A stretch of 64,000 nt of DNA from an uncultured Bacteroidota bacterium (GTDB lineage: Bacteria; Bacteroidota; Bacteroidia; Flavobacteriales; Schleiferiaceae), in assembly GCA_913057235.1 (NCBI GenBank), contig CAJXNI010000008.1, positions 1 through 64,000 of the forward strand, written 5' to 3'. Under the pieces are notes generated by a model. The model was not told where the DNA came from. It did not search any database and saw only the letters and a program-made list of their open reading frames with translations. The translations under genes and the position numbers were made by a program. Position 1 is the first letter of the stretch, and the number at the start of each line of letters is the position of its first letter. Positions 26,177-50,184 of this stretch are shown in pieces.

Positions 26177-26263
26177 TGTCATCCTGAGTGCTGGACCATA
26201 GCGAGAGCGTATCGAAGGGTGACGTTTGATTTTTCGAGAAGCTAAACCTACCCCGTCTGCTGC
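26177..26263 (+). repeat. Dispersed intergenic repeat, copy A
   Basis: This copy is about 87 nt and nearly identical to 26291-26377. It starts GTCATCCTGAGTGC and ends in a shared ACCCCGTCTGCTGC block. The outer parts GTCATCCT and AGGGTGAC can pair to form a long hairpin. A degraded relative lies on the minus strand at about 1842-1881. Confidence 0.75.
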
Positions 26264-26290
26264 CAGAATAGAAGCCTGCTTAAAGCGCAG

Positions 26291-26377
26291 TGTCACCCTG
26301 AGTGCCCGACCATAGTGAGGGCGCATCGAAGGGTGACGTTTGATTTTTCGAGAAACTAAACCTACCCCGTCTGCTGC
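26291..26377 (+). repeat. Dispersed intergenic repeat, copy B
   Basis: This is a direct repeat of 26177-26263. Here the arms GTCACCCT and AGGGTGAC pair perfectly. Two further palindromes follow: GCTGCTGCGCAGCAGC (26373-26388) and CCCCTTCC-AGT-GGAAGGGG (26391-26409). The whole 26065-26433 gap has no gene and looks like a mobile or structural repeat site. Confidence 0.75.
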
Positions 26378-44609: not shown

Positions 44610-45302
44610 ATGAAAAAAATAGCTTTTGCCCTTTTCGCCTTACTCCTCTTTTTAGGCTTTTCAGCCGATGCCCAGCTTAAGCCCAATTTCAAAGACTGGT
44701 TTTTTTACGATGTGGCGGTGTTGCAATACCTGGATGCACCGGCAGGAATGGAGCAGCAGTGGTTTAGCAACGGTCATTACTTTAGCCTAATGGCGCAAAG
44801 CCAGTTTGGAAAGCATTTTGCCCTGGGCTATGGCTTAGGCTTTAGCTCAGAGAATTTTCACAACAACATGCGTATTCGTACCCTGGAACAAAGTGGTGAC
44901 GAAACCTACCATACGCTCCCCGATACCAGTTTTGAAAGTAACCGGCAAAACCTGGGGTACTTATGGGTGCCTTTGGAATTGCGTTTTAAGGGCAGGGCTA
45001 ATTCTAAGGGACAGTTTTTTCGGTTCTACTTAGGAGCTAAGCTGGGTTTGAGAGTACGCAGTTACCACGAATTTGAAACCCAGTTAGTGAAACAACGGTA
45101 CTACAATTTTGAAGACCTGGCCCGCCTGCGCGGTGATGCCTACCTGCGCATTGGTTTTGATAACCTAAGCCTGTTTGCCAGCTATAGCTTTACTGAACTT
45201 TTCACGCAAGGTGAGCTCATTTACGCTACCCCAAATCAAATTGAGCAAAATTCGCTTCGCAGCATCCGACCTATAGCCCTGGGCGTTTCCATTAGTCTCT
45301 AA
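44610..45302 (+). CDS. Predicted outer-membrane beta-barrel protein
   Basis: This 230-residue protein has a signal peptide (MKKIAFALFALLLFLGFSADAQ). It continues with about eight amphipathic strands (for example HFALGYGLGFSSENF, FFRFYLGAKLGLRVRSY and LRIGFDNLSLFASYSF) and ends PIALGVSISL. It resembles the PorT-like/OmpA-barrel class of Bacteroidota without a specific hit. Its stop codon coincides with the start of a 53-bp repeat that recurs at the end of the PAP2-like gene at 48121. Confidence 0.7.
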   Translation: MKKIAFALFALLLFLGFSADAQLKPNFKDWFFYDVAVLQYLDAPAGMEQQWFSNGHYFSLMAQSQFGKHFALGYGLGFSSENFHNNMRIRTLEQSGDETYHTLPDTSFESNRQNLGYLWVPLELRFKGRANSKGQFFRFYLGAKLGLRVRSYHEFETQLVKQRYYNFEDLARLRGDAYLRIGFDNLSLFASYSFTELFTQGELIYATPNQIEQNSLRSIRPIALGVSISL

Positions 45303-45352
45303 TGCCAATACATAAGCGTAAATACCATAAGCAGCCCGGTAAAAAAGCCAAT
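45300..45352 (+). repeat. 53-bp direct repeat, left copy
   Basis: Identical over 53 nt to 48121-48173. In the right copy the repeat is the last 17 codons of the PAP2-like gene; here it is a stranded fragment behind the barrel gene. The pair brackets a 2.8-kb segment with two genes. Confidence 0.9.
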
Positions 45353-45458
45353 ACTACCAGTTCGCTGGCTTCATTAATCCAATAGACGCAAGTTTTTTTA
45401 AAGACTTGTGCTCTGGTTCATTGATTCAATGCGCAAAAGGAACTTCAAAGGATATCTT

Positions 45459-46025
45459 TTAAAACTGAAACCCAATACTCAAATTAGGTAAAATGGCAGT
45501 ATTATCACGAATCTCTGTATTGTAAACTTCTCCGAATTGATAGATAAACTCTACCCCTGTGCCCAGAAAGTATTTTTGGTTTGCGCCAAAATGGTAGCGA
45601 TAATAAAGTGCTGAATTAAATCCATGGTAGTCTATAAATGAAGTGAGCTCCTCAAAAGGTGGTTGAAGAAAGGTGTCATCAATTTTTCTTAGATCAAAAT
45701 AATACGTGTAGCCCAGTCTTAAACCAATTTGGTGCTTTACCCCATATTCTATTAAACCAAAAACAGGTAATGCATTATCGCCAATCCTGCCAGCTTCTGA
45801 TGAACCTAGATAAGAACCTGTACCAAAACCAATTCCGAAGCCCACCGTCCAAAGCTCATTATTAAACGGCTTCATTAGTCTGGTGTAGGTAGTGCTGGTT
45901 AAAACCCTATGGCTCACTAAATTAAAAGATACACGGTTCTTTGCTTTAGGAAAGGGCGTTGTTTCTTGCGCCCAAACATTCAAACCTAAAAAGCTGGCGA
46001 TTACAAACAATGCTAGTTTTTTCAT
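45459..46025 (-). CDS. Predicted outer-membrane beta-barrel protein in the inserted segment
   Basis: This 188-residue protein has a signal peptide (MKKLALFVIASFLGLNVWAQ) and a small barrel (strands such as ELWTVGFGIGFGTGSYL, HQIGLRLGYTYYFDL and YFLGTGVEFIYQFG). It ends SIGFQF with a terminal Phe, the usual outer-membrane signature. I recognise no family. It is 41 bp downstream of a T9SS protein gene in the same direction, and both lie between the two 53-bp repeats. Confidence 0.7.
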   Translation of the reverse strand: MKKLALFVIASFLGLNVWAQETTPFPKAKNRVSFNLVSHRVLTSTTYTRLMKPFNNELWTVGFGIGFGTGSYLGSSEAGRIGDNALPVFGLIEYGVKHQIGLRLGYTYYFDLRKIDDTFLQPPFEELTSFIDYHGFNSALYYRYHFGANQKYFLGTGVEFIYQFGEVYNTEIRDNTAILPNLSIGFQF

Positions 46026-46066
46026 TTTATCAATTTTTTTGTGTTTTACTTGTGTTTATTTAGAAT

Positions 46067-47695
46067 TTACCGGAGTAAATGGAGGGTTTGGTGAACTTCA
46101 TCTTCCACAAAATTACCCTCTTCATTCAACCCACTATAGACGATGCGAATAATATACATGCCTGCCGGAGCGTTTCCACCATCCCAGGCTTGGTCAGGAT
46201 CTTTAGTTTTAAAAACAACCTGCCCCCATCGGTTGGCAATCTGAAAGTCGTAGCTTTCAAAATTGCACTTAGTTACCGGTTTAAAAACATCATTCAAACC
46301 ATCGCCATTAGGAGTAAATGAATTGGCCAAGAAAAATTTACAAACGCAGCGCTCAAAAACTACCTCAATGGAGTCTCGGTATTTACCGCATGGGTGGTCT
46401 ATCTCTACCCAGTACCAACCATCATTTGAAACGGTTAAAGTAGAATCTACTGAAATCTCGCTCCAGCGATATGGTGCCCTTGGCTCACGTTGCATGGTTA
46501 ACTTTAAATCTCTACCTAAACACACCGGTTCAGGTTCTTCAATTTCGTAGTCACTAGGCTTAGAGGCATAGATAAAGATGCTGTCAGATTTAGTACAGCC
46601 ATCTTTAACTGCGGTAAGTTTGTACCAACCCGTCTGGCTTATTTTAATGCTTGATGCAAACTGACCCGTATGCGCCCACCAAGAAGTATCGGCACTAGGC
46701 ACTGGGTTTTGTAGGCTAAAGGTGTCTTGAGAGCAAATGGAGATGTTTTCACCTAAATCAAAAGAAAAATCTTCAACCGCAACGTAGGTTTGCAAAGTGT
46801 CAAAACTCCCGTAAAAGTTAACCAAGGTGTTTTCTAGCGCTCTAAATTTAAAAACACTATCGGTACCCAAAATAAAGCTGGAATTGTTGGCTTTAGCCCA
46901 AGCGTGGTTTTCTTCACCCGTGGCTATTAGCTGGGCGGTATCGCCCCGGCAAACTCTAATGGTATCGGGCACACGGGGGTTTAGAATACGCACCTTTACG
47001 TCATCAACAAAATAAGGCGAACCACCCCCCAACAGTTCCCAGCCGTACACAGGCAATATATAGGGGCTTTGCCTATCTGGGTAAAAATTGCCGATAGTTA
47101 AATAATCGTAATCTGCCTCACTAATAAAGGTGCCTGAAACTTTTAGCCAATTTACCGTATCTGTTACTAAGCTATCTAAATTAATTTGTGGTCTAGCTGC
47201 CAGTAAGCCGCGGCTGTTCTCAAAAGGTTGGGTGGGGCTAAACCACATGCCATGCTGCCCACCCGGAAAACTAACTGACTCTGTACGGCAACAATCATAA
47301 CCGTGCCATGAAATCCAAAACTCCGCATAAACTTTGGCTCGTTTAGGGATTGTGCGCTTTATTTTTACAGAAACATATTCTCTTTCGTTAACAAACTCTA
47401 CAATGGCGTTACGGTACGAGATAGTTGTGTAGATAGCCATAGCCTTACCCGTGCGTGGTTGCTGATAGCGATTAGGATTGGGCGAAGCCCAATTGGGGTT
47501 AAGGTCAATAGCATCTACATGGCAAGCAAAAGGCTCTGATAAATTGGGAGAAAACCAATGATCTAGATTGCTGCTAAAATCAGGTGCATCAGTAGGCAAG
47601 TGATTCATTGCCTCAAAGCTAGCATTGGGCACAAGGTTTTGCGCTAAACATAAATTAACTAAAAAAGTAAAGATTAAAGCAGAAAGGTATTTCAC
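46067..47695 (-). CDS. Secreted T9SS type B (gliding-motility-associated C-terminal) protein
   Basis: This 542-residue protein has a signal peptide (VKYLSALIFTFLVNLCLAQ, GTG start). An N-terminal carbohydrate-binding-like or jelly-roll region begins NLVPNASFEAMNHLP, a pattern frequent in Bacteroidota surface proteins. Ig-like repeats follow, and the C-terminal sorting domain reads FLANSFTPNGDGLNDVFKPV ... FQIANRWGQVVFKT ... APAGMYIIRI. It should be exported by T9SS and attached to the surface. Together with the small barrel gene it forms the cargo of the 2.8-kb insertion. Confidence 0.9.
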   Translation of the reverse strand: MKYLSALIFTFLVNLCLAQNLVPNASFEAMNHLPTDAPDFSSNLDHWFSPNLSEPFACHVDAIDLNPNWASPNPNRYQQPRTGKAMAIYTTISYRNAIVEFVNEREYVSVKIKRTIPKRAKVYAEFWISWHGYDCCRTESVSFPGGQHGMWFSPTQPFENSRGLLAARPQINLDSLVTDTVNWLKVSGTFISEADYDYLTIGNFYPDRQSPYILPVYGWELLGGGSPYFVDDVKVRILNPRVPDTIRVCRGDTAQLIATGEENHAWAKANNSSFILGTDSVFKFRALENTLVNFYGSFDTLQTYVAVEDFSFDLGENISICSQDTFSLQNPVPSADTSWWAHTGQFASSIKISQTGWYKLTAVKDGCTKSDSIFIYASKPSDYEIEEPEPVCLGRDLKLTMQREPRAPYRWSEISVDSTLTVSNDGWYWVEIDHPCGKYRDSIEVVFERCVCKFFLANSFTPNGDGLNDVFKPVTKCNFESYDFQIANRWGQVVFKTKDPDQAWDGGNAPAGMYIIRIVYSGLNEEGNFVEDEVHQTLHLLR

Positions 47696-48119
47696 GGTTA
47701 ATGTTTAGATGGTACTCTCAAACCCAAGAGCTAACCATTTACATAAAGGCTAAATTCAAGACAATGGTATTTCAATTTCTTAAGACTAAAGCAAAATAAT
47801 CTGTTAAAAAAAGTACCGCAGTTAACTATTTTGCTCTTTTATAAACTGATGAATTATTGACAAGATGTAAAACTATATCAAATTCTATTATTGTAAAACA
47901 ATACTTACAAATATGCCACTTGTTTGATAGTGAAAAACTTACAAGTTACTAATGCATAAAAACTAATAGGAGCTGGGGCTAGCAGCTTGGAGAATAAACC
48001 TATTTCCCCTTCATTTCAGATAAAGTAGTTCATGCCTTAAGGAACTTGCTTCTGTTTACAAGTAAATCAATTAACTGCGCTATTGCTGAGCTTTCTTCAA
48101 TAAGAGTTTAGACCTTTGA
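47696..48119. other. AT-rich intergenic end of the inserted segment
   Basis: This stretch of about 420 bases is visibly richer in A and T than its surroundings and has no supportable frame on either strand. It presumably holds the promoter of the T9SS protein gene. I see no inverted repeats or recombinase site next to the right 53-bp repeat. Confidence 0.5.
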
Positions 48120-48722
48120 TTAATGCCAATACATAAGCGTAAATACCATAAGCAGCCCGGTAAAAAAGCCAATGCTGAGTTCTGCAAAGGTGTGCGCTTT
48201 CAACTGATATCGGGCGGAAGCCAAAATACCACTGGCTACCGTTACCCCTAACACCAGCGGTAAAAAATTAAGGCTGTATTTTAAAGACATGGCCAGCACC
48301 AGGCCTAAAAAACCGCCTATGCCCGCCAAATGAGCGCTGGGTTTTAAAAAGCTGAGTAAAATTAAATGCACCACAATTACCGCGGCTGAGGCCAATAGAA
48401 AGAAATAGGCTTCTTGCAGGGTTTCAATTTTCTCTAGTAGAACGGCCGTAAAGTAAAAGCTTACTGCACCAAAGGTATAGGGTAACCTGCGGTCTTTGGC
48501 CTTATCCATAAGCAAGCTGCCCACTACCTTGAACCTGAAAAGCAAGAGACTAACCGCCACCGGAATTACGTAGGTACCGCAAAAAACCAAGCCTAAGGTG
48601 TAAAGTATAATTTTGGAGGGAAAGTGGTACACCGGCAGTTTTAACACCAAAAAAACACCCAAAAGCGGAAAGATAGCCGGGTGTAAAATCAGAGATAAAA
48701 ACTTGGCAACCTTGGTTTTCAA
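48120..48722 (-). CDS. PAP2-like integral membrane protein
   Basis: From TTG 48722, which follows the rpoN stop by 1 nt, the protein has about 200 residues and six membrane helices. The three phosphatase blocks of the PAP2 superfamily can be traced: K(x)DRRLPY for KxxxxxxRP, KPSAHLAG for PSGH, and ARYQLKAHTFAEL for SRxxxxxHxxxD (Glu in place of Asp). It may dephosphorylate a lipid phosphate such as a polyprenyl or phosphatidyl intermediate, but the motifs are divergent. Its last 17 codons are duplicated at 45300-45352. Confidence 0.7.
   Translation of the reverse strand: MKTKVAKFLSLILHPAIFPLLGVFLVLKLPVYHFPSKIILYTLGLVFCGTYVIPVAVSLLLFRFKVVGSLLMDKAKDRRLPYTFGAVSFYFTAVLLEKIETLQEAYFFLLASAAVIVVHLILLSFLKPSAHLAGIGGFLGLVLAMSLKYSLNFLPLVLGVTVASGILASARYQLKAHTFAELSIGFFTGLLMVFTLMYWH
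48121..48173 (+). repeat. 53-bp direct repeat, right copy
   Basis: This copy lies inside the 3' end of the PAP2-like gene and matches 45300-45352 exactly. Placing the two copies on top of each other rebuilds a simple tail-to-tail junction between the barrel gene (ending 45302) and the PAP2-like gene. Confidence 0.9.
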
Positions 48723-48723
48723 A

Positions 48724-50184
48724 TTAGAGCTCTTTACGTAAACGCGCCACTGGAATATCCAGTTGCTCACGGTATTTAGCCACCGTTCTGCGGGCAATGG
48801 GGTAGCCTTTTTCTTTAAGCAGAGCCGCCAACTTATCGTCTGTTAGTGGTTTTTTCTTGTCTTCTTCTGCTACAGACTCTTCCAGAATTTTTTTAATCTC
48901 TCGCGTACTTACGTCCTCACCGGCCTCGTTTTTCATGCTTTCACTAAAAAACTCCTTTATGAGAAAGGTGCCGTAGGGCGTAGAAACATATTTATTACTG
49001 GCTACCCGGGAAACGGTAGAGATGTCCATGCCAATTTCATCGGCAATATCTTTTAAAATCATGGGGCGCAGATTGCGCTCATCTCCGGTAAGGAAATAGT
49101 CTTTTTGAAAATTCATAATGGCGCCCATGGTGAGCATAAGCGTCTGCTGGCGCTGCTTAATGGCTTCAATAAACCAGCGCGCCCCGTCTAGCTTTTGCTT
49201 CACAAAACGCACCGCTTCTTTTTGAGATTTAGACTTGTCTTTGCTGCTTTTATAATCTTCCAGCATGCTGCGGTACTCACGGCTCACGTTTAACTCCGGA
49301 GCGTTACGGGCATTGAGGCTAAGCTCTAATTCTCCGTCTTCTACGGTAATGGTAAAATCAGGAATTACCTCCTGCACGCTGCGGGCGGTGTTGCTACTGC
49401 TGTTGCCTGGCTTAGGGTTTAGGCGGGTTATTTCATCTAAGGCGTCTCGTAATTGATCTTCATCAATCTCCAGCCTATCCATTAATTTTTGGTAGTGCTT
49501 TTTTATAAAATCGTTGAAATACTGATCTAAAATTTGCCGGGCCGCTTTAACGGTAGCTGTTTGCTCTTTACGTTTTAGCTGAAGGTACAGGCATTCTTGT
49601 AAATCACGGGCGCCTACTCCGGCCGGGTCTAATTCCTGTACCCGCTTGAGCACCTTTTCCAGATGCGCTTCTTCGGTAAAAATATTTTGGGTAAAAGCCA
49701 GGTCATCTACTATGGCGCGCAGTTCCCTGCGGATGTAACCGTCTTCATCAATATTGCCCACCAGGTAGTCAGCAATTTGGCGGTCTTGATCACTCAGGGT
49801 TAAAGTGCTGATTTGATTTTGGAGGTATTCTGTAAATGTAGTTCCTCCGGTGATGGGTATTTTGGTTTCCTCATCGTCAGCCGAGTAATTATTCGCTCGC
49901 AGTCTGTAGTCTGGAGTTTCGTCATCACTCAGGTACTCATCTACGTTTATTTCTTCGGCTTCAATGCTTTCGGTGCCTTCCTCTTCAAAATCATTGCTTT
50001 CCAAGTCGGCCTCCAAGCTCTCTTCCGTCTCTTCACGCCCCTCATCTAAGGCAGGGTTTTCTTCCAGCTCTTCCTTGATTTTTTGCTCCAGTGCCTGCGT
50101 GGGCAACTGAATCAGCTTCATCAACTGTATTTGTTGAGGCGATAGTTTTTGTAAGAGTTTCTGACTAAGCTGCTGCTTTAGCAT
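48724..50184 (-). CDS. rpoN: RNA polymerase sigma-54 factor
   Basis: This 486-residue protein has region I (LKQQLSQKLLQKLSPQQIQLMKLIQLPTQALEQKI), which contacts enhancer-binding ATPases. An acidic region II (about 40-90) and the core-binding region III follow. The C-terminal DNA-binding part has the RpoN box ARRTVAKYRE near the end. All regions are intact. The PAP2-like gene follows after 1 nt. Confidence 0.96.
   Translation of the reverse strand: MLKQQLSQKLLQKLSPQQIQLMKLIQLPTQALEQKIKEELEENPALDEGREETEESLEADLESNDFEEEGTESIEAEEINVDEYLSDDETPDYRLRANNYSADDEETKIPITGGTTFTEYLQNQISTLTLSDQDRQIADYLVGNIDEDGYIRRELRAIVDDLAFTQNIFTEEAHLEKVLKRVQELDPAGVGARDLQECLYLQLKRKEQTATVKAARQILDQYFNDFIKKHYQKLMDRLEIDEDQLRDALDEITRLNPKPGNSSSNTARSVQEVIPDFTITVEDGELELSLNARNAPELNVSREYRSMLEDYKSSKDKSKSQKEAVRFVKQKLDGARWFIEAIKQRQQTLMLTMGAIMNFQKDYFLTGDERNLRPMILKDIADEIGMDISTVSRVASNKYVSTPYGTFLIKEFFSESMKNEAGEDVSTREIKKILEESVAEEDKKKPLTDDKLAALLKEKGYPIARRTVAKYREQLDIPVARLRKEL

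Follow-up and report, generated by a model that had tools for sequence, protein, structure and literature searches.

Insertion with long target duplication has been reported for restriction-modification genes in strains of Helicobacter pylori (Nobusato et al. 2000, Gene 259:99; PMC1643837, PMC3031569, PMC4978471). It is also described in PMC2749054 and PMC3154945. The long duplication is said to be "frequently associated" with restriction-modification cargo (PMC1643837). Direct repeats matching the empty target site also flank transposed non-transposon genes in Arabidopsis, which have been explained by circles from tandem duplicates (PMC2869330). The locus described here lies in a stretch of 64,000 nucleotides (the window) from the draft genome of an uncultured member of the Schleiferiaceae (2.83 Mb, 49 contigs, 99.97% complete). 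It is a clear, isolated case of a known but poorly explained gene movement in bacteria, with an unusual cargo and host. Probably, a foreign two-gene unit was inserted into the 3' end of a PAP2-like gene at the point where this gene and its neighbour, barrel1, had a 4-nt overlap, and some 53 bp of the target was duplicated in the process. The features of the locus, in window coordinates, are as follows.

44610-45302, plus strand: barrel1, the native neighbour on the left, which encodes an outer-membrane beta-barrel (PF13568); R1 begins with the three bases of its TAA stop.
45300-45352, no strand: R1, left copy of the 53-bp direct repeat, putative target duplication; non-coding except for the barrel1 stop.
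45353-48120, no strand: putative inserted segment, 2768 bp of unique DNA, 39.6% G+C.
45459-46025, minus strand: barrel2, 188 aa, predicted to form an 8-stranded beta-barrel and without a match in Pfam or NCBIfam.
46067-47695, minus strand: T9SS cargo protein, 542 aa, with a C-terminal type B sorting domain (PF13585 CHU_C, TIGR04131).
47696-48120, minus strand: AT-rich region (31% G+C) upstream of the T9SS gene, at the right end of the insert; presumed promoter.
48120-48719, minus strand: gene for a PAP2-like membrane protein, the native neighbour on the right and apparent source of the repeat; its TAA stop uses insert base 48120.
48121-48173, no strand: R2, right 53-bp copy; last 17 codons of the PAP2-like gene and two stop bases.
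48724-50184, minus strand: rpoN (sigma-54), whose position beside the PAP2-like gene is conserved in relatives.

The preliminary description of this DNA reported an exact 53-bp direct repeat, in which the last 17 codons of the PAP2-like gene recur on the stop codon of the barrel gene. Sequence comparison within the window confirms both points: R1 and R2 are identical at 53/53 bp with a spacing of 2821 bp, and R1 starts at the barrel1 TAA (45300-45302). The chance expectation for such a repeat is ~10^-22 pairs in 64 kb. A 27-mer of the repeat, allowed up to three mismatches, matches only R1 and R2 in the whole 2.83-Mb genome. Past the repeat end the first base differs and the following two agree; the duplicated tract may therefore originally have been 56 bp, with one base changed later. 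The exact identity had also been taken to suggest a recent event. The identity stands, but it excludes, at 95%, only a divergence of more than ~5.5% per site; with anything up to that value allowed, it argues only weakly for recency. A degenerate PAP2 copy beside R1 was considered, since a tblastn match extended there, but the DNA beyond the repeat does not align and this candidate was rejected.

The flanking genes have a native arrangement which is preserved elsewhere in the family. Four relatives (G007, G012, G016 and G018), each from another genus, have barrel1 and the PAP2-like gene adjacent and convergent beside rpoN, with neither insert nor repeat; the empty site is thus established at the level of the family, not of the strain. 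Gene coordinates suggest the same empty arrangement in two further genomes of the order, G025 and G037. G012 and G016 show a 4-nt overlap of the two stop codons, which lie 86 bp apart in G018 and 230 bp apart in G007. In the window, the PAP2-like coding sequence runs from 48123 to 48719 with its stop at 48120-48122, the T at 48120 being an insert base. When the insert and one repeat are removed, the barrel1 TAA (45300-45302) and a PAP2 TAG (45299-45301) again overlap by 4 nt, in a register identical to that of G012 and G016. Both repeats therefore stand in native context, which indicates a target that was duplicated and not imported; on this sequence context, the 53 bp is taken to be host DNA and not something brought in by the insert. 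It had been proposed that collapsing the repeats rebuilds a tail-to-tail gene pair and that relatives should be searched for an empty site. Both proposals are borne out, and the insertion reading is supported by the empty site in four genera and by the native stop overlap. The comparison revealed neither relatives which always carry both genes of the segment without the repeat nor a different ancestral order. It should be noted that the name "PAP2-like" derives from a weak, below-cut-off match to PF01569 in one orthologue only. When GTDB contigs were searched with PAP2, no close relative turned up.

The segment between the repeats differs in composition from its surroundings. Its G+C content of 39.6% is the lowest among 245 windows of the same size (mean 46.0, sd 2.3), and the 425 bp upstream of the T9SS gene has 31.1% G+C, in agreement with the earlier remark that one end is AT-rich. 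In GC3, barrel2 falls below every one of the 412 ORFs sampled from the genome, and the T9SS gene ranks at the 6th percentile. The codon score of the T9SS gene is ordinary (40th percentile); the foreignness of the segment therefore rests on G+C and GC3.

As described earlier, the segment carries a small barrel protein and a T9SS surface protein, and barrel2 and the secreted CHU_C protein are its sole two genes. Neither a transposase nor an integrase is encoded, which agrees with the claim that no recombinase is present. The claim that inverted repeats are absent holds for the segment ends; imperfect internal inverted matches exist. An IS or composite transposon was rejected on the lack of a transposase and of terminal inverted repeats and on the length of the duplication: IS and composite transposons duplicate ~2-14 bp, for which 53 bp is too long. 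The promoter of the T9SS gene is presumed to lie in the AT-rich region, where consensus matches are not above chance. The T9SS gene and barrel2 look like one transcription unit, since they run in one direction. The insert as a whole looks like a complete unit, comprising an AT-rich upstream region, a T9SS CHU_C protein and a predicted barrel. The structure model of barrel2 is an 8-stranded barrel (mean pLDDT 65, medium confidence), and a structure search with it returned generic outer-membrane barrels only, none at E <= 0.001. The pair probably functions as a surface protein with an outer-membrane partner.

Homologous pairs are rare. Among 88 genomes of the family the T9SS-barrel pair is found in two others. 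In G047 the identities are 55% and 40% and the genes stand in the same order; in G017 the identities are 44% and 34% and the order is reversed. Both lie at loci unrelated to this site and have no flanking repeats. A sample of 398 genomes of the order yielded no further pair, and 395 genomes of the class gave weak partial matches only; an alignment search with the T9SS protein recovered the G017 contig again and nothing else. From these sequence matches, the patchy spread would fit horizontal gain of a functional pair. In G047, an IS3-type transposase pair and a protein with a sorting-domain-like C-terminus are located directly upstream of the homologous pair (L087:6284-8616). A viral origin of the insert was also considered and rejected; the repeat and the protein have no match in IMG/VR, and phages and plasmids gave generic matches only.

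Long repeats were surveyed in stretches of this genome (G000) totalling 838 kb and in 3 x 400 kb (1.2 Mb) of relatives. No other gene-flanking long repeat of comparable kind occurs in the 838 kb, where the remaining long repeats come from a duplicated tRNA, from tandem-like repeats at short spacing and from a pair of T9SS paralogues. The 1.2 Mb of relatives contains mostly paralogue or tandem repeats and a few repeat pairs with weakly similar flanks; none is as clean as the case described here. The event is single, and these samples do not indicate that the process is common. One relative has a 32-bp exact direct repeat with dissimilar flanks, its copies 463 bp apart (G003:C1:2387669 and 2388132); this is a possible smaller insertion of the same type.

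Several other features were seen in this genome. At 1286-1744 of the window, a tRNA-Ala(GGC) is followed by a GIY-YIG nuclease ORF (1395-1649, PF01541) which ends inside a second, broken tRNA-Ala copy. Exact repeats of 74 bp and 18 bp link the two copies, and in the second CCCCGAAAGCTTTCGGGG stands in place of the anticodon arm; the region looks like a tandem duplication of the tRNA and the nuclease ORF. A DDE-type transposase at 1-860 is apparently broken, in at least two frames. Exact direct repeats of 30 and 22 bp at 26211-26377, both spaced 114 bp, are probably an imperfect tandem repeat. Elsewhere in the genome (L114:15216-19474, on G000:C3), two adjacent paralogous genes for secreted proteins with T9SS-type C-terminal ends have a common 23-bp exact stretch.

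The main rival to insertion with target duplication is site-specific integration, in which the repeats would be the attL and attR of a small integrase-less islet, which a tyrosine recombinase supplied in trans would have placed at the 3' end of the PAP2-like gene. Exact repeats of this length that lie at the 3' end of a gene and restore it are a typical feature of attL/attR and are shared with tyrosine-integrase genomic islands, and with eight tyrosine recombinase matches in the genome a trans-acting integrase is conceivable. However, the insert is very small and, with two genes only, holds no integrase, and, in a further difference from such islands, no other att copy is seen: the genome has no third copy of the repeat, which shows no similarity to integrase loci. 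Nor do the pairs of G047 and G017 have flanking repeats, and in the stretches examined of the relatives' PAP2 loci the PAP2 tail is never repeated downstream. Site-specific integration is considered unlikely.

A Campbell-type single crossover would leave an identical final structure if the circle already carried the 53-bp PAP2 tail, as would the acquisition, from a related strain, of the entire locus in its rearranged form. Such integration has been invoked for gene transposition in Arabidopsis (PMC2869330). The circle would have to carry exactly this tail, but the single genomic pair of repeats offers no third copy, the repeat is absent from IMG/VR contigs, and plasmid records show only generic similarity to the T9SS protein; import merely shifts the origin to another strain. 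These routes are judged improbable, and somewhat more so than integration in trans. An assembly artefact, in which a misjoin duplicated 53 bp and misplaced the cassette, is scarcely credible even for a draft of 49 contigs: the insert lies well inside a 110-kb contig, genes are intact at both joins, the cassette genes have neighbouring homologues in family members, and the assembly is 99.97% complete with 0.2% contamination.

For insertion with target duplication, the route by which the duplication formed is inferred as follows. A DNA fragment would first enter the cell, perhaps by natural transformation; ComEC is encoded in the genome, so DNA uptake is possible. The PAP2 tail may then have suffered a break, or a fork may have stalled there, with repair taking place around the fragment; either a template switch or the filling-in of ends with a wide stagger would have copied the 53 bp to both sides. 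This would proceed without Ku, which is not detectable in the genome; classical NHEJ is therefore unlikely, and any end joining would be alternative end joining or template switching. The barrel1 stop and the last 17 codons of the PAP2-like gene are kept. Neither gene is broken, because the duplicated copy restores the PAP2 end which the insertion would cut off. The product would be harmless and would persist because the duplication spans the gene overlap and the entire PAP2 tail that would otherwise be lost. RecA-dependent recombination between the repeats would also be able to remove the insert.

The entry of a gene unit into a densely packed genome is recorded here with unusual clarity: the 4-nt overlap of the ancestral genes, the target duplication and the unit of foreign appearance are all readable. 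It is conceivable, as a speculation to which little weight is given, that Bacteroidota have an uncharacterised, recombinase-free mode of inserting surface-protein units which duplicates tens of bp and helps to spread T9SS cargo. If true, such insertion would permit entry into overlapping genes without harm.

Among described systems, the Arabidopsis transposed genes share with this locus the insertion of non-transposon genes and flanking repeats that match an empty target, but they belong to a eukaryote and have been explained by circles from tandem duplicates (PMC2869330). The structure here matches insertion with long target duplication: in both, a gene unit that carries no transposase has entered a bacterial chromosome and the target shows a long duplication. 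The 53-bp exact repeat is far beyond the length of transposon target duplications, the insert lacks transposase, integrase and terminal inverted repeats, and relatives in four genera carry a single-copy target without the insert, a comparison made at family level. The comparison here is thus between genera, whereas in the earlier reports it is between strains of H. pylori. The cargo also differs, being restriction-modification genes in Helicobacter and a T9SS CHU_C protein with a small barrel in this member of the Bacteroidota. Since restriction-modification cargo is described as only "frequently associated" with the long duplication (PMC1643837), the different cargo does not exclude membership. 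This case extends a phenomenon known mainly from Helicobacter restriction-modification genes to a surface-protein pair of the T9SS kind, carried by a genome that lacks a detectable Ku.
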